Shown in pieces: positions 3,756-53,091 of a stretch of DNA of 64,000 nt (the stretch's first letter is position 1; every line of letters starts with the position of its first letter). Origin of the DNA: Tamarix chinensis (Eukaryota; Streptophyta; Magnoliopsida; Caryophyllales; Tamaricaceae); contig CM060177.1 in assembly GCA_030549775.1 (NCBI GenBank), positions 49,192,244 through 49,256,243 on the forward strand. Reading direction: 5' to 3'. The position numbers were made by a program, and so were the translations under genes. The notes beneath the pieces were generated by a model. It was given only the letters and a program-made list of their open reading frames with translations, searched no databases and had not been told where the DNA came from.

Positions 3756-3789
3756 GGATGAATGTCCACCCAAAGGTGTTAATTAATGT

Positions 3790-19216: not shown

Positions 19217-19676
19217 GAAACCCCACCCAACAAGCTAATCAGAAATAATTTAAATTCGACCCAACTTGAATCCGAATTATCTCAATCCAAATTCAACCCA
19301 ACCCAATCTAATAAATTAATCTGATACAATCCAGATCTACAATAACTCGAACTTAATCCGAGCCAAATAATAAGACGATTCGAATGACCCAATTGGACTC
19401 ACAACTGACTCTCAAATAACTCAATCCATAAATAATCCAATTCGAATCCAACCTGTCCAATACGATTGCCACCAATAATGAAGACACATATATCAAATAA
19501 CATGGGATCGTGCCCAAAAGCTTTTTTCCAAATTCAGGCAGACCGTGCATGTGCCTCCTATCACTCGGGATCTGGTCATCATTTCCCACAAAAAGTTGAT
19601 ATCAAAGTCAGCTCTTACGCACAGTGTTACATGGGATGCGAACGAAGCCGAAATTCAAAAACAAGAGAAATAGAAT

Positions 19677-19725
<49 letters not shown>

Positions 19726-25062: not shown

Positions 25063-25907
25063 TTAATGCCATATAAACTCTCCCAGTAAAGTTTTTCCAC
25101 TATCTTCCTCTTAGCAATTTAGAGATTCGATCTATCTTAGCAATATAACTTTACTAATAATATTCAATAAATATAAATCATATAATATCAAATATATCAT
25201 ACAAATGATCGATATATAAATATAAGATTATTATAAATATCTCATTATGTGATCAAGTGATCCATGCATATTGGGGAACCAGTTTCAATCGAATTTGATG
25301 CTCATATGCTGCATCTATTCCCCAAAGCTCCTTGTCCAACTATATGGTTATATTATAATTAGAAGATAAATTGAAAAAGTAAACAATAGAGTACGAAAAA
25401 TATTCTATTACGGAATGTGTTGCACTGAATGCACTGATATATGATTGTAATAGAGTACCCGATTATATGAATGTAATGACAAAGGTGAGGATTAATGTAT
25501 GCACTGAATGTTATTAGTGTCAATGAGTTCCTTGGACAATTGGAATAATTTCATTTATGATGTTGATTAAACACGAAAATGAGCCTAAAATTAACTAATC
25601 AAACAAGCAACCATTTAGCTAAGATATATCACTATCAAAATGAGCATAAAATTATATACCTATTTACCTCTTTCATTTGTATGAAGACTGCTTCCACTAT
25701 TTTGTCGCGCTCTTATCATACCCAAATCCTCTGGTCCTTTTCATTATTAAACATAATTAAATTTAATTACCTTCATTAAATAATTAATAATACTAGATTG
25801 TAGAATAAATTTAATTACCTTCATCAACCCTCATATTAGCATCTTCTACATATTGAGGTTAAAATGTATTAGATCAGGGAACCTGTTGAACAAAATCTAA
25901 AGTTCTC

Positions 25908-28040
25908 CATCCTCCATATCCATTTATTTATATATGTTTAAGTATCCGATAGATAAAACCTATCAGATTTTGGATAAAATCTGCTACGTTTGCATCTCTA
26001 GAACCAATCCAACAATCTAATCTTAAATAATTCAAATCCGACCCAACTCGAATCCAAACTATCTCAACCATAACTCAACCCGACCCTACCCGACCAAATA
26101 AGTTAATATAATACAACCCGGATCTACAACAACTCGAAATCAATCTAACTCAAATAATAAGACGACTCAAATGATTCGGCCCGACTCACAACTGACCCTC
26201 AAATAACTCGACCTAAAAATAATCTGATTCAAACACGACCCAAAAATACTCTGATCTGAACACGATCGGCTTGCCACTTATAATTAAGACACATATCAAA
26301 TAACATGGGATCGTGCGCAAAAGCTTTTTTCCAAATTCAGGCAGACCGTGCATGTGCCTCCTATTACTCGGGATCTGGTCATCCTTTCCCACAAAAAGTT
26401 GATCTCAAAATCAGCTCTTACGCACAGTGTTACATGGGATGGGAACGAAGCCGAAATTCAAAAACAAGAGAAATAGTATTTATAAGATATATATAACACA
26501 TTCATATGCACTTTGAATAAATAGGGATGTAGAAACGTTTTTAGGAACCGATACCTCGGATCAAATAAAATTACATCAATCAACATTATCGATTCCCATT
26601 CTTATCATAGCCATAAAAATCTACTTGTACCAAGGAAAAGCCTTTCGAGGACAATATATATTATCCATTATCTTCCCAATAAATACAATGGGTAACCGAT
26701 TAATCTAATATAATCCCTTCTTATAATAAACAGTAAATAAATAAATAAATAACATAAAAACATGTAAAGTTGTTGAAGCTTTGAAGTTGTGGATATATTT
26801 TGTTATATTTAACAAATATTCTTAATTACTACTATATCATGCATTTAAACTTCAACAGAATGGAGGCGTAAACGTTTACTATTACCTAGTTAATTAATGA
26901 ATTTATATTTAACGGGAAAAAATTGCAGAAATAGATAATTTAATGCTTTCAGAAAAGACGGACGACCAATAGAGTAGTTAAATTTGTTGATCTTCGGATC
27001 ACCACTAAACACAATCACCCTTGCTAGGGGCGTATGAGAGGCAGACCTTACAGCAAAGGATAATACGTATATTGCTACTACTAGCTAATACTACCAGCGC
27101 CTCTTGGGCACCGACATGAGAGGTACGTAAGCTGTCATGAAAAAGAAATGGATTGGCACCTGACCTCAGAGCAGATAGGAAAAGGGGAGAGACACGGATC
27201 CGGTTAAGCAAGTGGTCGCTTGCCGCTAATACACGGTCATAAAGGTTAATCAATCGTGCCGACATGGAAGATGATGCAATAGCACCTTTAATTAATTGTA
27301 TGGTTATTATACGACGAATCAATCAACTACTACTATTATGATGACTTCTTCTGGCCGGTATACTTTATTGCCTTCTTTCCTTTACTACTACAATTTGGGG
27401 GGGGGGGAATAAGACGTAAAAAAGGTTTGGAATTTAATTTAGTCTTTGTTTTATTAGCATCACAATAAAGGCGAGCACGACACGTACGCCCATTTTTGTC
27501 AAATATGAATTCCTCAGGTACAGCAAACAATGAGCACAATAAAACATGCTATTCACCCTATGTATATTATGCATACATATTATTCATATATGCCAATCAT
27601 GTCAAACCCTAAAATCGCATGAAACGTTTAGAGAGCCACTAAACTCTTAGAATCTAACATTGAATACATAGAAAAATAAAATACTTGCACGTGCGATATC
27701 ATGTCATTCTTGGGTGCTAACACATTATTGTGCTCATGTACACTATCCTACATGATATAAACCAAGAAATACATATTCATATAATACCAATTCATATAAT
27801 ACCAACCAGGATGCTCATAAGGTATGAATAAGGTAACTTAAGATAAACTAATAAGTAAGACCCAAATCACCACGATAGCCAACAAAAGATAATAAGTCAT
27901 TAAGACATGGAGCAACCAAGACAATAATAAGCTAGGATACTCAATCCATGGAATACTAAACAAGATACCCAACAAAATATAATAAGTCATAAACACTAAG
28001 AAATCAGGATTCAACAATAAGCCAATAAACGCACCAAACA
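25908..28040 (+). repeat. Direct duplication, copy 2
   Basis: Partner of 19126-21311. It starts inside the right half of the same MITE (end CATCTC at 25993-25998) and continues beyond 28040 into DNA absent after copy 1, where the CACTA starts instead. Copy 2 lacks the long TA tract and the small insertion present in copy 1. Confidence 0.9.
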
Positions 28041-32404: not shown

Positions 32405-32849
32405 TATACCCTTAAAAAAGGGAGTAGAACAACAGGAAAAGAAAATATAATTATAATCTTCATAAATTTTAAAAAAAAAATATCTAGCATTATTTATTTG
32501 ATTAAAAATAAATAAAGGATGGATAGAAGAAGAAAATATAGAAGAATCAAAAAGAACAAGAGGAATGAGACGAGGGAGTGTCTTAGTTTTCTTGCTCAAG
32601 AGCAAAGGGAACACTTAGCAAAAATGCAAACAAAGGAGGAGAGAGGAAATAGCAACCAGTTAAGAGAGCTAATTGATAGAAAGTCTTAATGAAAGGAAAT
32701 GAAACAAGGAGGGAGAGGGTTGATAATCAGATTAGTCCAAGGAGAGAGGGGAGTTAATTTACATAACACTTGAATGAAGGAGAGGGATGATGGTAAGGTG
32801 TGTGTAAGGTTTATGATAGGGTATTGTTATATAGAAAACTAATATTTAC
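32405..32849. other. Purine-rich spacer before the MULE
   Basis: A/G-rich sequence (AAGAAGAAAATATAGAAG, GGAGGGAGAGGG) like the purine arm of the TGTAACACC family. No gene is seen. Confidence 0.4.
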
Positions 32850-32853
32850 TCGG

Positions 32854-33697
32854 CGGAAAACAATTTACGAAACTAACCTTAATATCGGTAATTTTTGTCG
32901 AAGCGAGTACCGTTGCATCTGTAAAATTTACTGAAGCCAAACCTCATGATCGACAGTTTTAGCCGAAACCGCCCTCGAGATTCGGCAATTACAGCCGAAT
33001 GCTACCAAGGTCATCGGCAATAATTGCTGATGCCTCTAACCTTTCTTTTCTTTTTTCGACAATTTCGGCCAAACACCCCTATTTATTTTGCATTGGATAC
33101 AAAAAAATTTAAATAATTTTTATTTATAATTAAAAAATTCATAATCTATATAAATATTTTATACAAAAATTTAAATTAATATTTTTACAATTAAAAAAAT
33201 CAATAAATAAATGTAATTAAACTTATAAATTTATTAAGGATCGGCAATTTCAGCTGAATATTACCAAGGTCATCGGCAATAATTGCCAATGCCTCCAACA
33301 ATTTTTTTTTGGCAATTTCGGCCGAACACCCCTATTTTTTTTTTTTTTTGCATTTGATACAAAAATTTTGAAATAATTTTTATTTATAATTAAAAAAAAT
33401 TCATAATCTAGATGTATAATATAAATATTTTGTACAAAAAATTAAATTAATATATTTACAATGAAATAAAAAATTTCAATAAATAACCTTAATTAAACTT
33501 ATAAATTTATGCATATTATAGGAAGAGAAAAAAATATTAAAATAAAAAAAGTAATTACCCCACATCTTCGGCATTCTTCGCCGAACATAACATCAATCGG
33601 CAATAATTGCCGACCCTCCCTCACCTCTTTGTTTCATCTCCATCATGAATGGTTGCCTCCATTCTCAATAATTACCTATATCGGCAATAATTGCCGA
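32854..33697. promoter_or_regulatory. Left-end array of 17-bp dyads (MULE)
   Basis: The 17-bp imperfect palindrome, consensus TCGGCAAtttTnGCCGA, starts at 32885, 32918, 32950, 32982 and 33014, that is, every 32-33 bp; a degenerate one is at 32854. Further copies are at 33056, 33241, 33273, 33309, 33568, 33597 and 33681, the last two with TCGGCAATAATTGCCGA intact. Spacers between sites are not conserved, so the dyad is the conserved unit. Likely binding sites for the element's own transposase (inference). Part of the region (about 32980 and 33240 onward) is also a tandem duplication of roughly 260 bp. Confidence 0.8.
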
Positions 33698-34712
33698 ACT
33701 ACTCCTTTTTTTAAATTATAAATGATGTAATAAAATTTTATAATATAATTTTTATCTATAATTGAAAAAAATATCATGATCTATATCTATATTATATATA
33801 AATTTTATGTTAAAAATTTTGAGTTTTTCAAAAGTAGCCTTTAAATGAAATTGTATCAATAAAATTTGCTACTTTCCCATCGATTAAAAATACCGATGCT
33901 AAATCTTAACTAATTTAAATTATTTGTAAATAAAAATAATTTTAATCAATATCTATTATAAATATATCTAAAATATATAAATTATATATACTAATGAATA
34001 TTTTTAAATCAGTAATATATGATTTATTATGAAACAAAAAAGTTTTTGTCAAAAGTAGCCATTATTTTGAGTATTTCAAATCTTATTGAATTAAATTTAT
34101 ACAAAAATATATCGATAGAAAACATATGTATGGAGGTTAGGACAAAATTTATTTTCCATCGAGTAAAAATTTATTTTTTCAAATAACAAAAACTGTATAC
34201 TATCATCTGATTCGAAAAGATTTGAAATAGTAAAATAATGCCTACTTCTGAAAAAAAAAATATTTGCTTGACAATGAATCATATATTATTGATCTCGTTG
34301 GTGTTTCGGCATGTTTAGCTGATAGTAGTGGAATCATATACAATGAATCATATGCTGGTGGGGATAGAAAATTGTTGTGGCGTCGGCAAGACTGATAGTA
34401 TTGTAAGATGGTACGTAGAATAAATATACTATTGCAAATCTTTGTAAATCAAATTATTGTAGGATGGTATGTGGTTCTTGTGAAGTTGGGAACTGAAAAT
34501 TTTTTTGTCAAAAGCGTAGGCATGTGTATATTTATTGTAGTTTATATGCGATTCAGATGCGTGTATAATTATTGTAGTTTCTATTCGAATCCTTATATAT
34601 AAATGAACAACTTATCATTTGTATTCTTTAACTCATTATTTCTATTATGTAGAATAGGAATTGTTAGTTGAATGTTGAGATAAAAATTTTTAATATTTGT
34701 TAAACACTCAGA

Positions 34713-37700
34713 ATGAATAATGAATTTAGAAGTTCTTCAAACTACGATGAGTTTGAAACTTTGATAGGGGTACGATGAGTTTGGAAGTCCGATGAACTAC
34801 GAAGATGGGGTCAGAACCCCATCATATTACGATGATAGATTTACAATACCAACAAGCTATGGATACGCAGAAGATATACAAATGCATTCTCCCAATATTA
34901 ATTATAACTTCGACGAAGAGGTAAAATATTTTTTTTTTAGTATTGTAAATTGTGGCGACAAAAGTAGTTAGGTGAAATTAATAGTTTTTTTATTATATTA
35001 TTTTGGTAAACTCTTTTTTTTAGGATATGGAGAATATATCTTTTACGACTCAAAATTATCAGAGATTTTTTGTAACGGATCAAATATTTTTGGATAAAGA
35101 TGAACTTGTGACATGGGTTAATAAAATGGGTAGAACTCATAAGATGATTTTGATTATCAAAGGTTCTAGAAAAGGAAATGGTATAGGGGCGGGTAGAGTC
35201 TCGATAAGATGTGAACAAAGTGGAACGTACGTCCGTACTAGACCAACAGATACCGAAGGTGCACGTAATACATGTTCTAAAAAAATGATTGTCCTTTTTT
35301 TATTATTGGTGTTGAAAATAATAACAGTGGATGGCAAGTGATAGTTAGGAACGGGACACACAATCATGAATTGGCTAATTATGACCAAGGACATGCTGTT
35401 CTTGGTAAGTTGACAGAAAATGAAGTTCAATTTGTTGATAAACTTATCACAGCTAATGTAAAGCCATGGCAAATCATACCGCTTCTTCAAAAATAATTTG
35501 AAGGTAATGTAAGTATGAGAAGGCATATTTATAATGCTCGACAAAAGCTTAGGTCCGAAGAAATGGACGATCAAACAATGTTACAGCATGTTATGAGTAT
35601 GTTGGTTGAGAATCATTATTTTCAGTGGCATCGAAGTGAGCCGCAATCAAACGTAATAAGTGAACATCTGTTCGCACATCCCGTATCTGTTAACATTTTA
35701 CGTGCATTTCCTTTTTTTTGCAAATGGATTGCACATATAAGACAAATAGATATGGAATGCCCTTACTTGAAGTTGTCGAACTAACATCAACACAATTGAA
35801 TTTCAACGTTGCATGTGCATACATGTCATCTGAGAAGGAGGAAAATTATTTTTGGGTACTTGAGAGATTGAAGAGCTTAATGGATCCATATATGCTTCCA
35901 ACCACCATTATTACCGACCGAGAACTTGCTCTTATTTCAGCTGTGGAACATATTTTTTCTACTTCAAAACATATATTATGTAGGTTTCATGTGAATAAGA
36001 ATGTGGAGGAAAAGTGTAAGAAACTCTATGGTCGTTCATCGTTCACACGTGGTTTTATGTCACGATGGAAAAGTTTGATAGATGCCACGGACGAACAAAC
36101 ATATGAGGAACGACTGTTGTCAATGGAGGAAGATTACAGAAGCATGCCGAGCCTAATTTCATATCTAAAGACGAATTGGCTACAACCATACAAACATAAA
36201 ATTGTTGTTGCATTCTTTGGTGACGTGTTTCATATCCATCAGCTTACAACGAATAGGTATGATTTATATTTTATCACTTAGTATAGCTGATTTAGCTTCT
36301 TTTATGTTGATAAAGTCAAGTACTGAAATTTTTTTAATGAACAGGGTTGAAGGTGCTCATGGATCTTTAAAAAGATTTCTAGAGATATCATGGGGCAGCT
36401 TTAATATAGTGCACAAACAAATGCACCCATTCCTTGAATTACAACATGATAAGATAAAAGCATCGCTGGAGAGGTCTCGGTTCAATACTCCTCATTTTGC
36501 TACAAGTGATCTTTATGACAATTTGAGGGGCCATGTTTCTTTATATGCAATGGAGTTGGTGAACAACGAGTGTCAGAGACTTGATCATGTACATACGGAG
36601 GATGATTTATGTGGATGTTACATGCGTCGTAAGCACGGGATACCATGTACGCATGAGATTAAAACATACATTCATAACTACATGTCAATCCCCCTGTCAG
36701 CTATTCATCCGTTTTGGAAGAAACTCGACATAGATGGGCCGATTACTCCACCGATACCCCAAGAACCATTAGAGGTTGCATCTCATTTACTCCATATTTC
36801 CATGGAATCTATTATGAACCAGCCACCGAAAATACAGAATCAGTTGGCCAGAGAGATATTTAATATTGCATTTTCCCAGAGAACACCTCTCCACGAGCCA
36901 CCAGTACAGTAGCACAAGGGTCGCCCAAGGAACTCCGCCAAAAGGGAACAATCTAGTTGAGAGTATACAGAACAACAATTTTCTAGTCGTCCCAGATCAA
37001 CTCATCATCGGGGTCGAGGTCGGGGTCAGGGTCGAGGACTACAATCGGTATTTCTATAATCAGGCCAATTTCAATTTCCATACGTGACTCAGATGAATCG
37101 ACATATAATTCCTTATATTAGTAGCTGGTGTAATGTTTTAGGAGATGGGAATTGTGGTTTTAGAGCATTGGCTTCTATTATACTAGGAGATGAAGAACGG
37201 TGGGTTCAGATTCGTACCGACTTATATCACGAGATATTGGAGAGACGACAGTTGTACGAGAATGTGTTCGTATATGAAAGCATTGATCAAGTTCTTAATA
37301 CTATTGCTTACTGAGAAGGGCCAGCTCCGATAGCACACTGGATGGAAATGCCTGATATTGGCCATGTCATTGCAACATGTTACTGTGTGTTGTTTACATA
37401 TTACTCATTGAATGCATGCAGCTCATTCCTACCTTTAGTGGCTATGAACGGAATTCAAGGTCCTGAAAATGAAGTCACTATATTTTTCTTGCAAGACATG
37501 AGTCACTACATATCAGTGAGCACTAAGTTTAATGAAGATTTTTTCCATTTCAATATTATATGAATGGCTAACATAATTTTTTTTTTCGACAAGTATATCT
37601 TTTAGAAAATTTTTCACTCCCACCAGTACATACAAATTGGAATAGATATCATAATAGTAGCGTTTCAACATGGAATACCCAATATTCTTCAAGATTCGAA

Positions 37701-37772
37701 CAATGGCGTGCATTGGTACATGATGACACACAAGACCCTCATCCTTTATCTTCAGACTCAACTTTAATGTAA
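34713..37772 (+). pseudogene. MULE transposase fused to OTU protease, broken
   Basis: DDE transposase of the MULE type. Exon 1 is 34713-34920 and intron 1 is 34921-35023; exon 2 runs to 36256 and intron 2 is 36257-36344 (phase 2, splitting an Arg codon). DDE residues: D at 35727 (MDCTYKTNRYG), D at 35916 (TDRELAL), E at 36349 (NRVEGAHGSLKR). A SWIM finger C-x-C..C-x-H lies at about 36610-36653. The same frame continues through an RGRGRGQGRG stretch into an OTU cysteine protease: GDGNCGF with Cys at 37153, SHYISV with His at 37504. A last exon starts at about 37606. Lesions: frameshifts near 34770 (within a 28-bp repeat of TACGATGAGTTTG), 35285 and 35718 (poly-T); stops at 35494, 36910, 36958, 37057 and 37312. 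Confidence 0.88.
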
Positions 37773-38841
37773 AATTGTTGTAATTTTTTCTTTATTTATT
37801 TGTGTTTACATCCTTTGTAACATGTACGTGCTAAATTTAATAAATATATCCTAATTTCTATCACGAAGATCTAAACTATGAATATATAATAAAACACTTG
37901 AATCATGTAATTAATGAATAAGGATAGGAAGATATTGATTGATTAATAAAATACTTTATTCGTGTTGGAAAATACTGGACCTCCTTATTTTTCCTTGAAT
38001 TTTCAGCCAAATGCTGACTTTTGAAAACTTAGATTTTGTGAGCTGACATAATAACATGGTTGCCATCATTATATCTATTCCTCCCGTGTCTCTTATTCCT
38101 TCGTTATCTCTTGATGAAATTTGAACACAAATAGTCTAACTTAACATATAAATCTCATACATTAATGGTAAAATAAAAACGACACCTGACATTAATTCTA
38201 ACAAACATATTTTAATGTCTTTACATAACAATACGGTAATACATCAAGTTCAATACAAATGGCCACGTCAAGGTGGAGTAACTCCTAAATCACGCACAAG
38301 GGTTTTGATACATGTAACTAACTGCTCATAATTTGGAGCTGGCTCTCCCCTCCAATACAATTGACGGATAGTTTTACGTGCTTTGTTCAAACGTTTTTCG
38401 GCTGGTATATGATGATCATCGTTTGCATGTTCAGCCAAATATTCTTCCGTCGTAGCCAATATATATCTATGAGTTCTCGGAACATACGAATCCATATAAT
38501 CATCAGTCACATCCCATGGGTATTCAATCGCTGGTCCAAAAACATTCGAGCCCAATATATGTTCATACCTCAAGAACCATTGGCCGAGCATGTGTGCATA
38601 GTACACTTTGTACTTCTTAAGGGAAGGACCTCTGTATGAGTTTCTAGTTGGCTTGATGGGCTCCTCAAGGATGACTTGTGCATAACCGAATTGCTGTATC
38701 ACTCTATATGGCAGATGTGGTTCAACTTTCTCCAAATAATGTATACAACCATGATAGAATACCATACGGCAGTATCTATATGGATCAGCTACCCCGTACG
38801 GATCCTAATTGACCTTTAACCAAAATATTAAAGTAAATATG

Positions 38842-41800
38842 TGTAACACCCCAAAATCACGACTCAAAATTTTCGTTTAAATTATGCTTTGCGGAAGCGA
38901 AAATTAAAGAACGGTGGGTGTTACCGCCACACTTGACATAAGTCTGGTCTCCTCACCATCCTTACATCAAGTGCTAAGGCTTAAAACAAATCAAACCATC
39001 CAAAGTTAAGAGAAGTATAATACGAAATCAAGAGTTTTGCAAAAGACATATTATCCAAGATAAATGATTGTTCAGGAAATTAAATAACTTAACCATTTAG
39101 AAAATAACAACAGAGTACGTAAAAGTCATTTATGGTCTGCCTTACACTCTTACGGTCCAACAAATTACAAGGAAAAGGGGAAAAAGGGGCGGGGTCCACT
39201 CACTCCCTAAATCTACCTATTCGCCGGGGTGACGCTCCTCGTAGTCTTTTAGCCAATGCATGCCCTGGACGTACTCCTCTGAAAAGTGATAGCATCAGTA
39301 CGACTTCCTCGTACTGAGTAAAACACAACGCCTCCGGAGAGGTAGCATACCCACGTAGCAAACATCATGCAAGTACGGAATTCAAAGAGAATATATGCTC
39401 ACATGCAAGGCCACGATTTGAAACACACAACCACATCACATTTAACATTACGAGCTAGGTCAAAATCTCCATCAAAGGCATTTAAGGCATGCTTATAATT
39501 TCATAATCAATTTAACTAACCAACGGCCATACATTATGGCCTAATAAGACGAATTTGTGATAATCCAAGCAATCTCACCAAGGTCAAGTCATTCCTATTC
39601 CGATTATTATAGAAGTATTATGGTGGGTGTCTAATCCGGTTATAAAATTCATAGCAATTCTCAAGTGGAATACAATCCCATATCCATGACAAAGATCGTC
39701 GAGGAGGGTGGTACCAAAATAAATCACTCGATTCCAGGTCAAAGCTCGCCAAGGAAGCCACACGACATAACAGTCACCCATACTAAACCTCAGAACTCAA
39801 GACCTTAAGTACGTGTACTCCCTATAGGGTGTATGGAATACCTATAGAGCAGAAGTGAGCCCCTTGACCCGAAGGCCCAAAACTATGCACTCGGCGGCCA
39901 AGTCCGAGGTACGAGATTCCTTTCCAACTCGAGTCTTTCTCTTTAAGTAATTATTGGCTTATGAAATTCCGGGTTATTATTTCCTTTTAGAATGCCGAGA
40001 TTCACAACGTTCAACTTAGGCAACCATCAACAAACAATATCACATTCAAATACCACAAGGTCACAACCATTCCAAGCCAACACGGCCTAGGGTTAGGCAT
40101 TATGCCATAGCCCGAATAATTATTCGATTCAATGTTCAAACCAATTATCCAATTATTCCCAACATTTATTTTAAGGCCAACACTTAATTTAATTAATCCA
40201 TTTATCCACTTTGGAACACCTTTTTACCTTAATGACCAAAATACCCCTCAACCTATAACTACCACATTTCCTTCACTTTTATTACCGAGTTTACTTACAT
40301 AAGACATTTGTCATGAAATGCTAGCATAAAATAATTATTGATACTTTACATCCGACAATCTATTCGGTATTACAAAGGACTATATTATCCCTAACCATTT
40401 ATCATACATAGTACATGTAAACACTATTAGCATGCATTTTTAATATTTCATAGGCTCCTACAATTTTCAAAAATAAATTTCAACAAAATCATGGTATATA
40501 AAATTACATTTTACCATAAACATACCCGTCTCATTTTACTAGCATAAATCCAAGTTTGTTACCATTAGCATACACTTTTTCACATTAAAGAATATCACTT
40601 CAGTATATAAAAAGATTACATGATAACACATATTAATTTACATTTCATTATATTCATGTATGAATGAACTACAATGTGCTCCCATATAAACTACATTTTA
40701 CCTTAGACATATTCATCTTATTTTACTAGCATAATTCAAGTTCGTTAACGTTAACATAAACTTCGTCAAATCTTTAGAATATCACTTAGGCACATGAAAA
40801 GATTGCACGATAACACATGTTAATTTGCAAATCATGATATTCATGTAGAAAATAAATACATCATGCTCCCATTTCCCACAAACATACAATAATTTGATAC
40901 CTTCATCCTATCATGATTTAATCCTAGAAAACTAGCCTATCATTTTGACATAAAAATTATACCGTCTACGGATTAGTTGGATTTACCTTGAGCTTCCTCC
41001 ACAAATACTCTAAGCGAGATCGAGGTTACCTAGAAGTGCATTCACCACCCAAACTACAAGCATTAGTATTTATGCAAAAAATTAAATAATCAAAATACAA
41101 CCTACATAGGCTAATACTTGAAAATGATTAGGAAAATAAAAGAAGCGGCCGGTGCATGAATTTAAGCACCGAACCCACCGAAGATAGAATGCTTACTTGG
41201 GGAAGAAAAATGGCTGCTTGGAGAAGGTAGAACACAAGGTAAAAGTTGGAAAAGTTTTGCAACAAAACTCGGTGAAGGGGAGAGGGGAGTTTTGGGCTGC
41301 ACTTACCTTTGTTTTCTTGCTGGAATTTAGGGAAGGGAAGAGGGGGCTGCAAGGAGCAACTTAGAGGGCTTAAAAGGAGGGGGAAAGGGGGTGATATCTG
41401 CAGGTTGAGACTCAAATAAAAAGGGGAAAATAGAGAGGAAATGGGCTGCTGTAAGGGTGAGTGGGGAAGGGTGTTGCAGGTTGGTTTTTGGGGGGAGAGT
41501 TTCGAAGCTTTTGAGGAGGGAAGAGGGGCTGGTTGAATACATGGGAAAAGAGGAAAAAGGAGGGATAGGTGGCTGGAATAATGGGATAGGGGTGCAGGTT
41601 GAGAAGGGGGGAGATACAGGCTGTATCTCGATGGAGGGGCTGGGGTTACGTGGGGTTTTTGGGCTGCATAAGGCTGGTGACGTGATGGCTATGGCTGGCC
41701 TGATTTGCTTGTATTTTCGCAGGGAAGAAGGGCATGGGAAAGGAGGAAAATAGGTGGGTAGATGGAGGAAGGATAGGGTAGGGGTGCAAGTTGGAGGAAG

Positions 41801-42616
41801 GAAGGATGAGGCTGCAAGTTAGGGGATGGGAGGTTGAGTGTCGAAGGGTAGAGGCTGCAGGTGGTGAGTGATGTGAGGGAAGATGGTTGAGTGATGGCTG
41901 CCAAAATTTGCAGGCTGGGGTGGCGTGAGAGAGAGTGAGGTTGGGGGAGGAGAAGGGCTGTGTTTGGGGAAGAGGAAAGGCTGCAAAAGAGGGGGATAAT
42001 GCTGGCTGGAAATGACTCATGCATGGGGAGAGAGGGAAGGTGACGGGTGCATGGCTGGGAGCTGCAGGTCGTGCGACCTGCTGGGGGTGGTTTGGCTGGG
42101 TTTAGGTGGGGAAGAAGGTGGGAAAAAGGTGCAGGTTTATTAGAGAAAATATTAGGAAGAAAAGAGAAAAAACTCCTAAGGTAGTAGCTAACAAGAAGGT
42201 TATTAGGAAAAAGAATTACCACTTAAACAAGGATTAATCTCCTCCAAAAATAAATCATGATACTACTATTATTATGACCAATATTATTATTATTATTATC
42301 ATTATTTTATCACTTCCCCCATTCTATTTTATTTGAAATTATTTCTAACATTATTATTATTCTTACAATCCCTTCTATTTTAATTACTCGCCTCTTGTGA
42401 TCGGTATTATTAACGACATCAATTAACTTCCTCTACCCTTTCTTACATTTAATCCAGGTTATTTTTATAACTCAATATTTATGGACCTACTCGAGACGAC
42501 AAGGCAATTGTTAAAAAAAATAGAAATAATAATAATCTTATAGTTTACTTTGACCACTAATCAAACTTTAAGCCTTACGAGTCTAATTTAAAGATTAATT
42601 TATACGGGGTATTACA
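38842..42616 (+). mobile_element. TGTAACACC-family element C, in a PMD intron
   Basis: Begins TGTAACACCCC and ends GGGGTATTACA, with a perfect 5-bp duplication ATATG at 38837-38841 and 42617-42621. It has ACCGCCACACTTGACATAAG (38921), CAAGTGCTAAGGC, CGTACTGAGTAA (about 39310), TCTTTAAGTAATTATTGG (about 39950), a purine-rich arm (41100-42150) and a TTATTA-rich 3' part. It is 3775 bp with no coding frame of known type. Only about 11 bp at the ends are inverted repeats, so taken alone it looks like a solo LTR of unusual length. Confidence 0.9.
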
Positions 42617-42878
42617 ATATGGATATCACAAACATAATATAGTAACAATATAATATTTTTAGAATACCTTTGATGCGGACATAACATCAATCTTTGCGCG
42701 AAAGTACTCGAGCATCTCCAATTTATTTTTGAATTTCTGGCCACAAGACCACCTCATACAACGAGGATGGTTTGGATCATACCTAAATCTTTCCACTCCA
42801 AACCCTGGAAAGTATTCATATATCCACGTCTGTTATAATATTCGATTGTTAGAATCATAACGAATATAGAGTATGTAA

Positions 42879-42919
<41 letters not shown>

Positions 42920-43857
42920 ATTATAAAATTACCTGTAATAGAGTGATACATCCTGAAATTTGAGCAGTGTTGGCTCTAGAAGCCATACCAAGTTGTTAAT
43001 ATAAAAAAGAAAGTGTGGCTACACCCCATGCATAACCTTCAACCCGGCTAAGATCTTGAAGAAAAATGATAAAGTATGGATTAACTTTATCAACTGTCTT
43101 ATCGACAAACAACGATAAGCTGATCAACCATAATATATACCCGATCGTTTTTTCCTCATCCCCTAACCAGTATGATTCACATACTTCTTGTAGCTATTTA
43201 AATGGAAGCCCGCCCTTTCGAGTGACTTCATTCACTTGCATTTCCTCCATCCCAAATAAGGCACCCATTGCACCAATCATTTGCCCACGCTTGTCCGTTG
43301 TCATGTCCAAATGTAATAGATGACCATCAACTCGTAGCCCTAATATACGATGTACATCTAAAAGAGTGATTGTCATCTCCCCCCATGGCATATGAAAGCT
43401 ATTAGTGTATGGTTTCCATCACTCAATAAATGCTGAAATAAGCAGCACGTTCACATGCTCAAATGTGCAGGATGGAAGGTGTGATAATTATGTTTGTCGT
43501 ATCAGATCGAACATCCTATCATTAACGCTTCCTAGAAAACTTCTTAAAACCTCCTGCCTCGTGTGGATCTTGGGACAACCCCGATCCTGATCAATACAAT
43601 AAACAAATGTAATGCATATATATGATTGATTACATATAAAATAATAATAAACATTCATAATGAATATGATAAACTTACCTTTCCTAACCATAAATCTAAA
43701 GTTGCGTGACCGTCAAAGCTAGGAATCAAATCAGGAATTGTTGGACCTCTAGGACATGGCCCAAGCAAGTAACATTCATCCTTTAATTGTATACTCTCTT
43801 CATCTTCACTAGCGTCACCAGCATCACCAGCATCCCTATCATGATGATCTCTATCCT

Positions 43858-43940
43858 CCTCCTCCTCTCCTCCTCCTCCTCCTCCTCCTCCTCCTCCTCC
43901 TCCTCATCCTCATCATCATCATCATCATCACCATCATCAT
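43858..43940. repeat. (TCC)n(ATC)n tract encoding acidic run
   Basis: Trinucleotide repeat within exon 1 of the PMD pseudogene. On the minus strand it encodes an Asp run followed by a Glu run. Confidence 0.9.
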
Positions 43941-44599
43941 CATTATGCATATAAGTCGATGACGATGCTCCACTAGTAATGTAGGGTAATGATGCTGGCA
44001 AATCTAATGATGATCTAGATCCACCAACAACAGTTGGGTAAACTGAGGATGATGTAACTCCCATAGCAGGCTGTGCCGGTGAGGTAAGAAAATCTATATA
44101 TTCTATAGATAATGGAAAACCTCCTAACTCGGAAACTCTGACCCCTGAACCTCCCACCCCCAAACTTCCAAACCCAGAGCCTCTGTACCCCGAACCTCCA
44201 ACCGCAGAACCTCCATACCTAGAACCTCCAACCCCCACCTCCGAACCCCGGACCTCCTGCCCCCAAACCTACGTACCCTCCAAACCCCGCAGTGCCAACA
44301 TCAACCACAAATGATGGACGACCTGCATAGTCTGTAAATGATGGAAATTTAGGACCTTGTTGACTAGACCTTGGTTCTGCGGGAACTTCTGCATATTCTT
44401 GTTGTTATGATGCTTCTTCTGGTTCTTATTCTCCAAATTTCTTACCTCGTTGTAATCCTTTGGTAATACTCCTTCCAAAATTTCTCAAACGAGCCATCGG
44501 CGCAAGTAGCTCAGTAGCAGTTCTGTTACGTCGTGAAGAAGCAGTAACATGACGACCATCGGTTCTATCTACTACTTTGCCTTGTCTGCGACTCATCTA

Positions 44600-45239
44600 A
44601 ATTTCAATAATAAATGCCTAAAGTCAATTATAATTACGTATAAGAATTGAAGGTAATACGTGATAACATAAATAAAACCTAATTACATAAATGAAATTAA
44701 TATAATTAATAAATATCAACCCATATTATGATTGCGAAATAGATATGTATACCCAACCATATAACTAAAATACAATCTCTTAAATTAATCCTCTACTTTA
44801 TTAATTAAATATATCAACAATATTTGTATTACTTACTAGTAGGAGTTTAGTATAATATAACAACTAAAGTACACTTAATTATGGTATGTCCCGATATATT
44901 TTTTCAATAATCCAACCAAATTTATCCAAATATATTCCATAAAAATTAGCAAACTAATTAAATATAATACAAATATAAACATATTTAATCTATTATAAAT
45001 AGATTTAACAAAAATATTAAACAAATCTAACCTATTATCCTATCAATATAATTAAAAACATTCACCAATAATCCCCATCACATAACAATATTTAACATAT
45101 TTAATGAAAATATAAATAAATCTAATAAATATCTAATCATATATAAATAATGCAATAACATAATTAACAAAGTATTAACAAATCTATAAACATAATAAAC
45201 AAATTTAATCAACTTAACCATAATTAAAATATATCATTA
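44600..45239. other. AT-rich upstream region of the PMD gene
   Basis: Very AT-rich, with repeated ATAATTAA, AAATATAA and ATCTAAC words and no reading frame of note. It lies upstream of the PMD start and so would contain its promoter if one exists. No clear TATA box stands out in such sequence. Confidence 0.5.
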
Positions 45240-45850
45240 CAAAATATCATTAATAAACCTTAATTAATATATACAAATTACATATCCTAACAAATTGCCA
45301 AAACTCTACAATAGAGAGTTAATTTACCGAACCTATCTTTAATTAAATTATGAGAGCATAATTAATATTATTAATAAACCATAATTAATATATATAATTA
45401 CACATCAAAGAAATAGCCAAAGCCCTAGAATAGAGAGAAAATTTACCGAACCTATATTTAATTAAATTATGAGAGCATAATTATTATAATTAATAAAACA
45501 TAATTAATATATATAATTACACATCCAAAAAATAGCCAATACCCTAGAATAGAGAGATAATTTACCGAACCTATATTTAGTTAAAATATTAGTGCATAAT
45601 CAATATAATTAATAAACCATAATTAATATATATAATTATATATCCTACAAATAACCAAAACTATAGAATAGAGATATAATTTACTAAACCTATATTTAAT
45701 TAGAATATTAGAGTACAATTAATATTATTAATAAACTATAATTAATATATATAATTTTACATCCTAAAAATAACCAAAATCCTATAATAGAAACATAATT
45801 TACTAAAACCTAGATTTAATTAAAATATTAGAGTATAATTAACAAAGTAT
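45240..45850. repeat. Tandem repeat, about 118 bp, five units
   Basis: Units marked by TTTAC(C/T)(G/A)AA at 45325, 45444, 45563, 45682 and 45800, each preceded by CTA(G)AATAGAGA and by CATAATTAATATATATAATTA. The period is 118-119 bp. Located inside the MULE right end next to the dyad array. Confidence 0.88.
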
Positions 45851-46008
45851 AATAAATCTAAAAATATATTTTCTAAAATTAATCAATTAACCATAATCAA
45901 AATATATTAGTAAGATAAATTATAATTAACAAATTATTATTAATAAATATAATTATAATTATAATTAAGATCATTAAACTAAAACCCTAGTGACAATACA
46001 AGCGAGCA

Positions 46009-46220
46009 TCGGTAGATAAGGCCAAAACGGATGCATAGGCATCGATATTTTTGGCCGAAGTCCTCCCCCGGGCATCGGCACAATTTGCCGAACCCAGCCT
46101 TCCACATCGGCAAATTTAGCCGATCTTACCCCCTTCCCTTCGGTCAATTTTGTCGAAACCCAGCTAAGACATCGGCAGATTTTGCCGAATCTCATGAGAT
46201 CCATCGGTTGATTTCGTCGA
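46009..46220. promoter_or_regulatory. Right-end array of 17-bp dyads (MULE)
   Basis: Seven 17-bp imperfect palindromes start at 46009 (degenerate), 46042, 46075, 46107, 46140, 46172 and 46204. Spacings are 33, 33, 32, 33, 32 and 32 bp. Examples: TCGGCACAATTTGCCGA (46075), TCGGCAAATTTAGCCGA (46107), TCGGCAGATTTTGCCGA (46172). Spacers differ in sequence. Same dyad and spacing as the left array. Confidence 0.88.
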
Positions 46221-46230
46221 TCTCGCCCTA

Positions 46231-47544
46231 CCAGATTTTTTTACATCTACAATCTAATTAATAAAAAAATAAAATTTATACTTACACATTTATAGATTTA
46301 AAATATTAAACTCAGATAGTTATACATTATAAATTATAAATTAAAAAACCTGATGCTGAGAAAAAAATTCAGCTGAAATTATGAGGTGTTTCTCGTAGCA
46401 GGAATGAAAGAAGAGAGAAGAGAGTAACAGGAGAAGAGGCAGAGAAAGAAAGTGTCCGCAGCTCGATCTTAAATAAAGGCAGAAGGATATTATCGTCATT
46501 TATTGTATAAATATTTTCTGTACAGTAAAAAAATTATTTTCCAAATAAGAGCTACCTTATGATAAACCAAAAATCAAGCCAGATGTGAGAGGGGAGGTCT
46601 GCAGACCTGACAAGGGAAAGGGAAGATTTGGTTGCAGAGCATGGGGGAAGGAAGAAAAATAGTCTTCGATGCAGGAAATACAAAAAAGGACACAAAGTAG
46701 CGTACTTAGATCATCAATAGAATCAAGAAAAGGCAACGCAAGAGCCTCAGTTTTCTTGCTCGTGACTACGATATTTGACTGTCGGAGGGAAGGATGCAAT
46801 TACATGTTTAATCTATGTATTCAGCCTCTGCATTGTAATAAAATCTACGAACTCTGCATTGTGATAAAATCAACAGCCCCCCTTTTTATCAATATAGCAC
46901 CACTCCCTTAGCGTGCAAGATTTTCTGTTTCAATGATGTGACCAATTCTTTTTCGAACAAAATTGTCTAGGTCTAGCCCTTTAAAACAACTCTTTCCATT
47001 GTTTTCTTCTTCTTCTTTTAACAGGTGGAAAGACCTCCAACACGGTAAATGATGTGGAAATGGCCTTCTTTTTTCCACTAAATCTCTCCCGTTAGTATGA
47101 TTGGCCAGCTTGCCGATGCAAAAGGGAAATACGGGCGGATCAAAATGCGTTCAGCTGCGACATTTATATATAATTAATTAAATGAAGGAGGTCTACAACT
47201 GGCAGTCATCACTCAGCCTGGTTTGCTTTTTATATATGGAAAGGAAGATCTTGTAAAGCTATAAGAAAGATCACGAAGTCGGTTTTACAAAAAATATTGA
47301 AGATGAAAGGACACGATATATATTTGGTAGCATTTGCTAGGTATTATGACTTACGTCTATCAATCAGTAAGTCGCTGACTAGTTTCATATATGGAAAGGA
47401 AGATATTATATTGGTGCCCGGGCTGGCTAGGTAAAGATGCAGGGTTCGATTACACAAACCGAAATTGATGGTCCTGGCTCGTAAAGCTAGCTAGGCTGGT
47501 GATTAATTAATTAGGCAAAAGGAGAGATTATAGTTTCTGAGATC
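46231..47544. other. Unassigned DNA, no gene recognised
   Basis: A purine-rich patch at 46395-46460 may still be MULE end. 46557-46920 is of mixed composition with short frames lacking known features. A direct repeat of ATATATGGAAAGGAAGAT occurs near 47234 and 47388. GCTAGCTAGGCT-type words lie near 47485. Composition is closer to host intergenic DNA than to the flanking elements. Confidence 0.45.
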
Positions 47545-48001: not shown

Positions 48002-51000
48002 TGTAACATTCTAATTTTTTATAACCTAAAATTTGAACGCTAATATTTTATCCGAAAAAAATTAATTTTAATTATTTATTTAATTATCTTTTGGAACAAT
48101 TGACTTACAAACATAGATAAATTATTTAATAAATTAATATAATTATTTTAATTATTTTATCTGACCCCTTTTAGTTAAATAAACCCTAAACCCATACTTT
48201 TACCAAAATTATTTTCTTAAATTAATACCCTAACTTTTTATAAATTAATATAATATTTCTCCAATAGCCAAAATTTAATATAATTTCTAATCCTAACCAT
48301 AAATCTATTTTCCTCTTCTTCTTTTTCTTTTTTCCTTTTTCTTCCTTTTCCTTTTTTCCCTTTTCTTTTTTCTTCTCCCTTCCTTTTTTCCTTGGGCCAG
48401 CCCATCTTCTTCCCCCTTTCTCTTTCTTTTCTTCCCGCGCGACCTAACCTCTTCTCATTTCTTTTTCTTTTTTTCTCCTATGCAACCGGCCTAAGACCTT
48501 TCTTCTTCTTCTCCCAGGCAGGCAAGCCCACTCCCTTCTCCCTTTTTTACCCCACGCTCTCCAGCCTCCCTTCTCTCCTTCTTTCCCCCATCTATGCCCC
48601 GACGAAATACTCCCCAAGTCCCCCTACACACGCCTTCTCTTTCTCCTGCATGCAGCATGCCTACACTTTTGCATGTCTGCAGTGCCACCTCCCCCTCCCA
48701 ACCAAACACCCTTGCAACACCACCCTCTTGACCATCCCTTTCTTTCCTTTTCCAACCCTACAACCCCCTAATCTCCTCCCTCGCATGCTCTTCCCTTCCA
48801 ATTTTCCCCCTACCACCTCTACCCTGCCTACCATACCTTGCACCACCCACCTACCCGACACACGACAAATCATCCCCCTTCTCCTCTTCTTCTCCTTCTC
48901 TTCTTCCCTTCCTCTCTTCTCCTCCGTGCTCTACTATATCCCCTAACCTTCCTTTCATTCTTTCTTCTTCTCCCCGCCCTTGTTTTTCCTTATCACCCTC
49001 TTCTACAGCAACCCGCAGCACCTCTACCACCAACCCAGCCTCCATTGTAGCCCACCACCCTTTTTCCTTCCTTCCCTCCTTCTTCCTCCTCCTCTACCAT
49101 CTTGTCTCTCCTTCATTCTCCCCTATGGTTATTATTACTAATTCTCTCCTCTACCTCCATCCATTCTTCTTGCAACATCCACCTCCTCCATCGCACCCAC
49201 CGCCAGCTCCTCTACCTTGCAGCTCCCTGCACGACCCTGAGCAACCAATGCCCCAGCCTCTCCCTACAACCCTTCCTCCTTTTCTATTCCCTTCGACATT
49301 TCACCATTCTTCCACCTCCACTTGGCCCCCATCCCCCTCCATTTCCTCTACCATCGTAGCTCCTCCTAGCTGCCTACAGCTAGCCACAACCACTTCAACC
49401 TTCGCTCTTGCACCATCACCCGTAGCCACCCTAGCACCACATACCCTTTTATTCTTCTCCTCCTCTTCTTCTCCTTTTCTTCTTCTCATTTCCCTTCTCT
49501 ACACCACCTCTCCCTGCAGCATACGCTACCACCTCCTCCGCCTTCAAACCACCTACACCACACCCTTCAACCATCAGCCATCTCCATCCCCAAATCCTTC
49601 ACTTAACAGCCAAACCAACACCTTCCACCATCACCTCCAAACCCTCACTCGAGCCATCCCCCTTCCATTTCATGCATGCATGTGTGTGTTGTGCCTTGTA
49701 CTTGTCTTTATTTTGGATAATATTTAAGGTATAAAGGTAGTTTGGTAATTTTACATGTAATAAATATTTTTAATAAAAATATATTATTTCATTTTTCAAA
49801 TTTTAATATGGTATTTGTGACATTATTTTTAGGTATAAAATTGTATTAATGGAACCTAATTATTTTTAGCCAGTTACTGATAAGGTTTATTTTTATTGGA
49901 AATCGAGTAATCTTTATACTCCACTAAAATGTTTGGGTATTGTATGTTGGCACATTAGGGTTTTGACATGTGGTTTGTGTTAGATATGGTTTGTTATAAA
50001 TATTTCTATGATTATTAATGTTATCTTGAAAAATGAAAAAAAGAATGCATGTTATCCTGTGTAAGATGTTATGTGTATGAAAATGTGATTAAGAAGGGGT
50101 ATAATATTGGAAAGTGATGTTCTATGTTATGTGTGTATATAAATGTTAGGTTGAGTATGTAAATACACATCTGTAGCAAAATTATTACTACCATGTACCC
50201 TAGGGGCAATTTGGTCATTTAACAATATCATGATAATCAACCCTAACGAGGATGCTTGATATGTTATAAATATTGCTCAGAATGGAGAATAAGGGTTGAT
50301 GTCTTACAAACACATGATTTAGCATGAATATCAATATTTTATGGTCTAGGGATATTTCGGTAATTTAAATGTAGGATGGTGATCATTCTAATAAATATGC
50401 ATGCTAAGTGTTATGTGATGCTAAAAATGAGAATATGGGTTTGTGGCATTAGAAATACATGTTTCAACATGATTATCAACATTATATGACCTAGGGGCAT
50501 TTTGGTAATTTTGCATATACTATGGGGATCATCATAATAAACATGCTTGATGAGTATTATTTGAAGTTAAATATGAGAATAGGGGGTTGTCATCCTAGTA
50601 TCACCTATTTCAACATGGTAATCAATATTACATGGTCTAAGGGTATTTTGGTAATTTTGCATGTACTATGGCGATTGTTCTAATAAACGTGCATGATAAG
50701 TATTGTTTGATGTTAAATATGAAAATAGAGGTTTATTATCTTAGTATCACCTATTTCAGCATAGTTATCAATATGACATAGTCTTGGGGCATTTTGGTAA
50801 TTTTGAATGTATAATGGTGGTTATCCTAATAAATATGCATGATAAGTATTAAATGATGTTAAATAAGAGAATAGGGACTTATTGTCTTAGTATCACCTAT
50901 TGTGGCGTGGTTATCAATATTACATGGTGTAGGGGCATTTAGTAATTTTGCATGTACTATGGTGATTTCCCAATAAACATGCATGATAAATATTAGTTGA

Positions 51001-51354
51001 TGCTAATTATGAGAATTGGGATTTGTTGTATTAGTAATATATGTTTAAGCATGAATATCAACATTATATGATGTAGGGCCATTTTGGTAATTTTAAACAT
51101 ACGATGGTGATTAATCTGATAAATATGCATGATAAGTGTCTTTTGAAGTTAAATATGATAATAGGAATTTGTTGTCTTAGTATCACCTATTTCAGCATAA
51201 ATATCAATAATATATGGTTTAGGGGCATTTTGAAAATTTTGTATACACTATGGTGATTATCCTAATAAACTTCCATAATAAGTATTATTTAATTCTAAGT
51301 ATGTGTTAGGTTTGTTGTGAAATTAGGGTTTCCAAGGGAACAGGGTTGTCGTAG
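48002..51354 (-). mobile_element. TGTAACACC-family member, reverse orientation, partial
   Basis: Starts TGTAACATTC at 48002, followed by AT-rich DNA, a strongly C/T-rich arm (48300-49730) and a tandem array (50209-51240). This is the mirror of 53090-56110. Its 5' half is missing at 51354, where the forward member begins. A reverse-oriented 5' end at 56120-56710 may be the missing piece. Pro/Ser-rich frames on the C-rich arm (for example 48392-48946 and 49125-49727) come from low-complexity DNA. Confidence 0.65.
50209..51240 (-). repeat. Tandem array, ~145-bp units, eight copies
   Basis: TTTGGTAATTT or a variant recurs at 50209, 50356, 50501, 50645, 50792, 50938, 51082 and 51228 (spacing 144-147 bp). 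Each is followed by CTATGGTGAT, AATAAACATGCATGATAAG and TATCACCTATTTCAGCAT. Confidence 0.92.
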
Positions 51355-52168
51355 TGTAATACCCCCAAAATTTAATACTGAAAATTTTTATTTTTAAAAG
51401 TTACAAGCAGAAGCTAAGATGATAAATTTTGGAGTGCTACCGCCACACTTAGTACCAGATCGATTTCCTTTACCATTCTGATACCAAGTGCTAAGGCTAA
51501 ATAATACTTTATTTAAATTCAAGAATACAATTATAAATCATAATAGTGCATAGAGGAGGTTAATTCACCTTCCATATAAATTATAAACCAAAAAGAAAAA
51601 ATATAATGGTTACAAAAAATGTTAGTGAAATTGAAATATAAAAAGATTATAAGGAAAATATAGAAACTTTTAGTTTAAATTACCATATATAATTTCGGAT
51701 AACCCTACTCTCTTAAGCAGATGAATAATCCTTGAATAGAGCTTGTGAGCTAACCTACAAATGACACTACCCATTGAATAAGTAAGGGCCTAAGAAATCA
51801 ACCATTTAATATAATGGTACTGAATAACCCATTATACAAGACTAATATGTAATGCTCGCATGCAACATATCAGATACATCACATCAATCATATAAACATT
51901 GAATTATGCATAAAGTAATTGAAATACAATAATCATTCATATAACTACATGCTTTAAGATAATATTCTATCAATACTCATTCACCTGAAAATAATTGAAA
52001 CTTACAAATGGAACATCCAAATAATGCTCTTTGTAGTATAATTAGAAAGCCACATCATCTTCAATAATATGCATAACTCTCTTAACTTACCCATGATCTC
52101 TCTTAACTTACCCATGATTTCTTAATTCACATGTAGGCCCGTCCACATAATCCAATACACACATTACC

Positions 52169-52348
52169 ACAAGTAGGCACAAAAGCTGCTACCAAATCAC
52201 AGGTAGGTACAACGGCTACTACCAACTCACAGATAGGCACAAATGCTACTAGCGAATCATAGGTAGACACAAAGGCTACTACTAGTTCACAAGTAGGCAC
52301 AAAAGCTGCTACCAAATAGTAGGTAGGCACAAAGGTTGCTACCGAAAC
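52169..52348. repeat. 30-bp tandem repeat, six units
   Basis: Six consecutive 30-bp units of the type ACA(A/G)GTAGGCACAAA(A/G)GC followed by TGCTACCAAATC, in the forward family member. It occupies the place where other members carry CCACTATT..GGTGGATCGG arrays. Confidence 0.93.
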
Positions 52349-53091
52349 ATCCCAATAATCACTTCCATTCAATAATCCAACAATTCCATTTTTATTTACT
52401 CGAGGGGAGATCAATGAACTTGGAGACACTAAGGTACCCTGTTCATACTGGCACATAAAGGAAGCATAATATCCTACCAAAAATCAACCCAATGACACAA
52501 AGGTACCCGAGTCGCACTAGTACACAAAGGTTCATAGTACCCTACCAATAAGGATACATAATCCATAGGTATGCATACCTCCTACTTAGGTCTATAGAGC
52601 TAAATAAAGAAAGATATAGGGTTTGGTTGCGGTACCAAGGCACACCAGTAAAATCTATAATAATCATGGGCTAAACCACATCTTTAGGGTAGCGACCCCT
52701 AAAGAGCCATCATTTCCTATCTCAAGGTCTTTCACTTTAATTATTAGTATTTTATGAGGGTGACCACGAAAAGCACACATTAATCACATATAATCCATCC
52801 ATCATACTCAACCATTTTTATTGGTTCCCAACATTATGAGGTAACTAGAATCAAGATCATTATCAATGTCAACATAAGTAGTCCTTTAAGGCCATCTTAG
52901 ACTCAAATGCTCACACTTAGGCACTTTAAGTCAACATGACCAAAATACCCCTATGTCTAAGGCTACCTTTTTACCTTCCATTCCCATCATAAATTTCATT
53001 TTATTTTATCAACTTACCATAAAAAGGATAACACACCATAATTAAATAATTGATCATAAAGTTAAGTTACCCGATAAACCAAATGATCATT

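Follow-up and report, generated by a model that had tools for sequence, protein, structure and literature searches.

Subterminal arrays of a 17-bp palindrome at a 32-bp step in a PMD-bearing MULE family of Tamarix chinensis

A Mutator-like element (MULE) in a 64,000-nucleotide stretch of Tamarix chinensis DNA (contig CM060177.1; the whole stretch is called the window below) carries, inside each of its two ends, an array of 17-bp palindromes, or dyads, set 31–33 bp apart. The dyad is a trait of the MULE family to which this element belongs: it is present at all 40 right ends sampled, its arms are conserved, and it is retained in short mobile copies. The dyads are probably docking sites for a protein needed to move or to escape silencing. 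Judging from the sequence pattern, we suggest that they are iterated binding sites for a symmetric dimer, with the element's own transposase as the likeliest binder, an interpretation that we hold about equally apt to be right or wrong.

Within the 17 bp, the arms TCGGC and GCCGA supply the ten bases scored, and the half-site reads TCGGCAA. Scanning the window with up to three mismatches returned 36 strand-matches, against 5.2 expected and a maximum of 10 over 100 shuffles. An earlier note, made from the letters of the window alone, had listed 13 dyad coordinates, 12 of which do bear a dyad (32918 is weak); at 32854, which it had called degenerate, only four of the ten arm bases match, and a wider half-site pair (TCGGCGG...TTACGA) lies there within the terminal inverted repeat (TIR) instead of a 17-bp dyad. 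Its claim of steps of 32 or 33 bp throughout was right as to regular spacing, but the steps among the listed places range from 31 to 33 bp, and it overlooked the dyads at 33056, 33241, 33273, 33309, 33568, 33597, 33681 and 34306. The interval 32854..46220, given there for the palindromes, spans the outer dyads and not the element, whose true ends, also overlooked, lie at 32819 and 46556 (Table 1). The first left dyad thus lies 66 bp inside the element end, as it does at 65–66 bp in four other full copies, and the last right dyad ends 336 bp before the right end. Farther in on the left, a tandem duplication of ∼260 bp copies 32982–33234.

Across the genome (1.32 Gb, 28 contigs), the exact dyad pattern occurs 1318 times, and two reversed controls gave 0 and 2 occurrences; exact dyads paired at a distance of 20–50 bp number 532, against none in the control. 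Although any step from 20 to 50 bp was allowed, 43 of 50 distinct pair places listed have a step of 32, five a step of 33 and two a step of 29. Projected outwards from perfect dyads in nine element copies, a match to at least 8 of the 10 arm bases is found at offset 32 in 43% of cases, at 64 in 24% and at 96 in 14%, against a background of 0.8%. Run over the window and its relatives, the motif search finds the dyads recurring at a 32–33-bp step in related MULE copies. Dyad counts here and below use arms matching in at least 8 of 10 bases, a threshold at which shuffled stretches give 0.04 dyads each; they take in copies related by descent, so dyad steps are not independent of one another. The full copies (L006–L010, our designations for loci fetched from the genome) measure ∼8.5–10 kb, and their coding sequence is ∼90–92% identical to that of the window. 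An exact 8-bp target-site duplication (TSD) flanks 13 of the 18 copies in which both ends and flanks were seen (the window, L006, L007, L009, L011, L019, L022, L024, L025, L032/L070, L034, L063 and L065). Among the exceptions, L029 shows a 9-bp TA-rich match, L010 and L067 match at 7 of 8 positions, L008 at 5 of 8 and L066 at 2 of 8; L008 and L066 have no convincing TSD.

Because a search by dyads alone would be circular as a test of retention, we also selected right ends by TIR sequence alone, scoring the 40 places most like L006 out of 246 candidates. All 40 carry dyads inside. Five had been obtained previously (L006, L008, L009, L011 and L024). In the newly fetched stretches, 34 of 35 hold 6–12 dyads within ∼1.2 kb (shuffled mean 0.04, maximum 1); the thirty-fifth, L069, has none because the stretch, at 338 bp, is too short, and the dyads of that element are seen in the overlapping L033, starting 303 bp inside the end. 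Counting steps of up to 110 bp over the 35 stretches, 184 of 275 are 32 bp, 19 are 33 bp and 12 are 31 bp. The right array stops 304–338 bp before the tip in 28 of 34 stretches and lies ∼100 bp from it in five (L057, at 102 bp, L063 and L065–L067); in L064 dyads stand at 88 and then 298 bp from the tip, and in L007 a likely chance match at 46 bp is followed by a dyad at 390 bp. A corresponding left-end query, for which 40 of 365 candidates were scored, overlaps the first dyad and for that reason was not counted as a test.

Seven copies of 554–1140 bp hold 7–15 dyads between their TIRs and are flanked by exact 8-bp TSDs: L011 (640 bp, 11 dyads), L019 (1140 bp, 15), L024 (696 bp, 11), L025 (554 bp, 7), L034 (652 bp, 11), L063 (572 bp, 8) and L065 (645 bp, 11). 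Five of them were first found by their dyads and L063 and L065 by TIR, which also found L011 and L024 again. Since exact TSDs are kept, these copies have moved; none has a stop-free stretch of more than 142 codons, too short for a transposase gene, and L011 consists almost wholly of TIRs, dyads and linkers. Arrays kept in copies without genes must, if they act, act in cis. L029, L066 and L067 are of a similar short type, with 11 dyads each, and lack an exact 8-bp TSD. In the full copy L008, 21 of 22 dyads are outside the open reading frames (ORFs) of the transposase and plant-mobile-domain (PMD) genes, the remaining one, at 6102 inside the PMD ORF, probably being a chance match.

These short copies bear on the proposal that the dyads are promoter elements, that is, sites for a host transcription factor driving the element's two convergent genes. 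In both the window and L008 the arrays do lie upstream of both genes, much as promoters lie in the TIRs of MuDR (PMC3310237). Yet seven copies with no room for genes keep 7–15 dyads each, although hitch-hiking with the ends could explain this, and we consider a purely promoter-based role improbable.

Two observations concern the architecture of these copies. L022:538–5315 is a 4.8-kb copy with an exact TSD (TTATTTAA) and dyads at either end, its size falling between those of the full copies and the mini-elements. Sequences resembling the right TIR also occur ∼630–740 bp inside the left end (L006:1166, L008:1054, L020:5515, L023:5374, L028:1239, L032:1356 and L035:1557), with a second in L008 (1464, ∼1060 bp inside) and one at ∼1590 bp in L010; the usual distance is close to the size of most short copies, a pattern that a mini-element joined to the left arm, or ancestral to it, would leave.

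Variation in the dyad arms is about as low as in the TIRs; in the spacers it is over twice as high. Over 23 aligned left ends, pairwise difference is 12.5% in the arms, 14.4% in the TIR, 18.7% in the dyad centres, 29.8% in the spacers and 25.4% elsewhere; at C/G sites, 7.7% of arm cells and 18.1% of spacer cells depart from the majority. At the right end, 29 TIR-selected copies and the window (omitting six of the 35 stretches: L069, which is too short, and L057, L063 and L065–L067, of the short type) differ by 0.074 in arms, 0.091 in the TIR, 0.133 in the gap between array and TIR, 0.191 in spacers and 0.215 in centres. When the arm mask is shifted over the right ends, the minimum extends over shifts of −3 to 0 (0.068 at −3, 0.074 at 0) and is not sharp at 0; the bases preceding TCGG also seem conserved. 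Across the 17 positions, the variability profile is mirror-symmetric (r=0.84, permutation p 0.005).

Such figures can be set against a neutral reading in which 32-bp repeats expand by slippage as a minisatellite and the palindrome is incidental, or serves as a folded strand. Units are gained or lost whole, ∼32 bp being missing from L006, L008, L009 and L032 and about double that from L019 and L031; segments of ∼260 and ∼410 bp have been duplicated locally; and the spacers hold a weak consensus (between-unit identity 0.39, against 0.28 when shuffled, p 0.0115). The spacers, which the earlier note took to be unconserved, are not free: they vary more than the arms, but they share this consensus and come and go with entire 32-bp units. 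Between left units of the majority sequence, however, arms are 85% alike, centres 69% and spacers 39%, and at either end of the element divergence is lower in the arms than in the spacers or the adjoining sequence, even though the arms contain mutable CG sites. The simple satellite that the note had posed as the alternative is therefore not borne out, and conservation of the arms well beyond the spacers fits protein binding. A hairpin function was rejected, since a test, albeit a weak one, showed compensatory changes between the arms to be no commoner than expected: among 202 unique dyads (376 dyads from fetched loci), position 5 is changed in both half-sites in 13, against 12.8 expected. The half-sites look independent, as would be expected of two sites each contacted by protein and not of a pairing stem. 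We regard the neutral or hairpin reading as very improbable, slightly more so than promoters; both fit the data less well than binding by the transposase or the PMD product.

The earlier note had further argued from the spacing that the dyads are held on one face of the DNA, and this did not stand. Only the 32-bp step is strict, and 43 steps other than 32 or 33 bp show no convincing phase at a 10.5-bp period (R=0.25, p ∼0.07; p 0.17 at 10.2 bp and 0.015 at 10.8 bp, three periods having been tried, uncorrected). A step of 32 bp is 3.05 turns, tolerable between neighbours, and the seven right dyads of the window drift by ∼206 degrees.

That the element is a MULE, as first proposed, is upheld by its exact 8-bp TSD (∼8–11 bp in the superfamily), its imperfect TIRs of ∼70–80 bp, located by a search for paired ends with target duplication, and a match to the DDE transposase domain PF10551. 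Without the TSD, the TIRs score 26, a value reached by 6 of 1000 letter shuffles. The gene frames of the window copy are broken; in L008, a related copy with long open frames, PF10551 matches at E 1.4e-26, and the FAR1 DNA-binding domain is matched weakly, below the Pfam cut-off (2.5e-4). The L008 counterpart of the C-terminal transposase part is 28% identical over 405 aa to a UniRef protein labelled OTU domain-containing (BLASTP); Pfam gave no OTU match to this ORF even at E≤10 and the PDB two weak matches (E 0.16 and 0.33), and we retain the label 'OTU-like' because of the BLASTP similarity alone. On the opposite strand from the transposase, the L008 counterparts of the PMD gene match PF10536 at 3.1e-9 and 8.6e-42, so this domain lies inside the element in both the window and L008; in neither does the Gly-rich/acidic N-terminal part reach the cut-off for a Pfam family of its own. 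The best-scoring transposase relatives are ∼40% identical, those with names coming from plants such as Rhododendron, Cannabis and Camellia, and the PMD relatives are in part named MAIN-LIKE or PP7 long form homologs.

The PMD gene suggests a second candidate for the binder, an anti-silencing factor comparable to VANC of the Arabidopsis VANDAL elements: the PMD protein of the convergent gene would bind the dyads and keep the noncoding ends unmethylated, leaving autonomous and short copies accessible. VANC proteins bind a short motif piled up in noncoding tandem repeats and remove methylation (PMC5735166, PMC10398659), and Ikeda et al. speculate that PMDs captured by MULEs may serve in anti-silencing (PMC5418596). 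In the present family, too, a short motif is amassed in noncoding tandem repeats, the arrays stand upstream of the two convergent genes, repeat units appear and disappear as wholes, and the arms contain CG and CCG methylation sites, with 52 of 83 arm deviations being C>T or G>A. VANC targets, however, occur in introns as well, whereas L008 from 1593 to 9339 has no dyad at the threshold except the one in the PMD ORF. Nor do the papers, in their available parts, establish that a PMD binds DNA; for the targets of MAIN/MAIL1, the DOWN motif is an enrichment only (PMC7156037). Five L008 ORFs scanned match MULE, ZSWIM, FAR1, AFT, PMD or nothing, and none matches VANC (DUF1985); of the three on the PMD strand, at E≤0.01, two match PF10536 and one nothing. 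We think this possibility rather unlikely, though well ahead of a promoter role.

From a symmetric, iterated and constrained site, present at each of the 40 right ends sampled and kept in short mobile copies, we propose that a dimeric protein acts in cis, affecting either mobility or accessibility. The binder is probably encoded by the element; Muta1 and Galileo offer the analogy that puts the transposase first, and VANC, together with the published speculation on MULE-borne PMDs, the one that puts a PMD-based factor second. The earlier note's docking of transposase is plausible, though the binder may instead be the PMD product or a host factor; we infer protein binding, the dimeric state and the transposase's part in it. 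If so, the dyads would serve as iterated sites for a symmetric dimer with half-site TCGGCAA, one every 32 bp (a 17-bp site and a 15-bp spacer) in two subterminal arrays. The transposase might bind them through its FAR1-type zinc-finger region, many dimers loading side by side on each end, and the loaded dimers could mark the ends as 'self' and help to pair them before cleavage at the TIR tips.

Several points weigh against transposase docking. The right ends scored were those most like L006, and array and TIR may simply be inherited as one where copies arise through internal deletion. The contrast in conservation shrinks in the 19 closer left copies (without the window, L012, L013 and L021), to 0.093 in arms, 0.095 in centres, 0.112 in the TIR and 0.139 in spacers. 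The covariation test is blunted by the 8-of-10 filter, which discards many dyads changed in both arms; in addition, 10 of the 13 dyads with both half-sites changed at position 5 are still palindromic, the result that C>T in each arm would give. The two ends are also built unlike one another, the left array starting 65–66 bp in and the right mostly stopping 304–338 bp short of the tip, and the spacers point mostly in the same direction at both ends although the TIRs are inverted (by base direction, right arrays give 34 forward, 3 reverse and 6 ties; left arrays 51, 21 and 43); it would therefore be the dyad's own symmetry, not that of the TIRs, that makes the two arrays equivalent. Finally, the large and variable number of dyads also suits a chromatin or anti-silencing target.

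Known systems offer partial parallels. In Muta1 and related animal MULEs (Aedes aegypti), 12-bp repeats with 3–4-bp linkers lie inside the TIR (PMC5225508); shared with the present family are the MULE transposase, a TSD of 8–9 bp, a terminal motif followed by many short repeats with short spacers, and many nonautonomous derivatives that retain ends and repeats. Here, in contrast, 17-bp dyads recur at 32 bp; the arrays run in one direction at the two ends, are in part distant from the tip and lie for the most part inward of the TIR, and not as repeats within the inverted repeat at both ends. VANDAL, also a plant MULE, has a noncoding tandem motif in one orientation whose units are gained and lost, but that motif is the 9-bp YAGTATTAY, introns included, bound by VANC, and the present element bears a PMD (PMC5735166). 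MURA of maize MuDR/Mu binds a conserved ∼32-bp TIR motif (cited in PMC3310237), and the number 32 that this shares with our step may be coincidence; both elements have two convergent genes read from promoters in their ends, but the available portion of PMC3310237 mentions no phased dyad array. The foldback-type plant MULEs FARE1 and MuTAnT likewise have palindromic or modular ends, which, in the available part of PMC4486113, are long palindromes or fold-back TIRs and not rows of 17-bp dyads at a fixed step.

Outside the MULEs, Galileo of the P superfamily has multiple transposase (THAP) sites, the first ∼70 bp from the tip and more in internal tandem repeats, but three sites were identified in long TIRs and these are not phased palindromes (PMC3688188). 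The PMD-carrying MULEs of grasses and Amborella resemble ours in their MAIN/MAIL-like PMD, which there is described as fused to the transposase and here is encoded on the strand opposite to it; the available part of PMC5418596 mentions no terminal arrays in those elements. The earlier note knew of nothing similar in plant MULEs. For the phased palindromic form this agrees with the PMC literature searched (subscription papers fall outside it), in the available parts of which we recognised no description; the VANDAL/VANC arrays (PMC5735166) and animal Muta1 (PMC5225508) are nevertheless comparable. MULE subterminal repeats (Muta1) and motif arrays in plant MULEs (VANDAL) are thus known from these sources, and what appears new is a palindromic array at a 32-bp step in PMD-bearing plant MULEs.

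Table 1. Features of the element and its dyad arrays (window coordinates; bracketed figures after dyad positions are arm matches out of ten).
Feature	Position	Strand	Evidence
Left target-site duplication TTATGATA	32811..32818	.	exact 8-bp identity with 46557–46564
Whole MULE copy, decayed, 13,738 bp	32819..46556	+	TSD plus TIR; left end aligns with 22 other copies
Left imperfect TIR	32819..32886	+	paired-end search with target duplication
Left array, five 17-bp dyads: 32885 (8), 32918 (6, weak), 32950 (9), 32982 (10), 33014 (9)	32885..33030	.	
Further degenerate dyad	33056..33072	.	
Dyads 33241, 33273, 33309, in ∼260-bp tandem duplication of inner left array	33241..33325	.	
Dyads 33568, 33597; 29-bp step, seen again in other copies	33568..33613	.	
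Perfect dyad; 84-bp step, seen again in other copies	33681..33697	.	
Isolated dyad in transposase leader	34306..34322	.	comparable single dyad in L006, L008
Transposase gene remnants, broken frames	35024..36912	+	MULE domain PF10551 within 35694–36281, E 1.7e-24
OTU-like C-terminal part of transposase, two adjoining ORFs	37060..37563	+	ORFs; BLASTP similarity of L008 counterpart
C-terminal part of convergent PMD gene	38268..38804	-	PF10536 1.7e-5, below Pfam cut-off
Later insertion TGTAACACCCC...GGGGTATTACA, ATATG at either side; not part of the MULE	38842..42616	.	absent from L006
N-terminal Gly-rich/acidic part of PMD gene	43655..44268	-	ORFs resembling L008:6632–7696
Right array, seven dyads: 46009 (8), 46042 (8), 46075 (10), 46107 (10), 46140 (8), 46172 (10), 46204 (8)	46009..46220	.	
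Right imperfect TIR	46486..46556	-	family right end at 40 scored places among 246 candidates
Right target-site duplication TTATGATA	46557..46564	.	exact 8-bp pair with left TSD

Further features lie in and around the element. The 3.8-kb later insertion resembles a long terminal repeat (LTR)-type element or solo LTR, and an AT-rich tandem repeat with a 119-bp period occupies 45170–45883, just inside the right array, with repeat-like matches there in other copies. Tip motifs characterize CACTA elements, and subterminal repeats belong to the general picture of En/Spm, Ac and CACTA. Membership of CACTA, considered from a TGCTACGAGAAAC match at 46388–46400, was rejected: the left partner end was not found, and TSD and TIR lie outside it. 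Elsewhere in the window, an LTR retrotransposon-like pair (19126–21313 and 25908–28040, 86% identical; region 19126–28040) has a CACTA-like end, CACTACAAGAAAA, at 21312 on the inner edge of its first repeat. Ten 18-bp CAACGA-N6-TCGTTG dyads (21336–21919, 10–11 of 12 arm bases) accompany this end, their irregular spacing being a natural contrast to the 32-bp array. A large inverted repeat spans 49187–56009 (arms 49187–51303 and 53870–56009, 76% identical) and has internal tandem repeats.

The arrays bear on two questions: how MULE transposases recognize ends beyond the tips, and what role MULE-borne PMD proteins play. Both are made directly testable by a family whose 17-bp dyad is clean and which offers candidate end copies in the hundreds, natural mini-elements and variants in array length. 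More speculatively, and a shade less likely in our view than PMD binding as such, PMD-carrying MULEs may have evolved, independently of VANDAL, a sequence-specific system for anti-silencing or for marking ends: a dimeric protein encoded by the element would polymerise on the 32-bp-phased palindromes at both ends, and the 554–1140-bp copies, little more than TIRs and array, would parasitise the system. Motif arrays in plant MULEs, in any case, extend beyond VANDAL.

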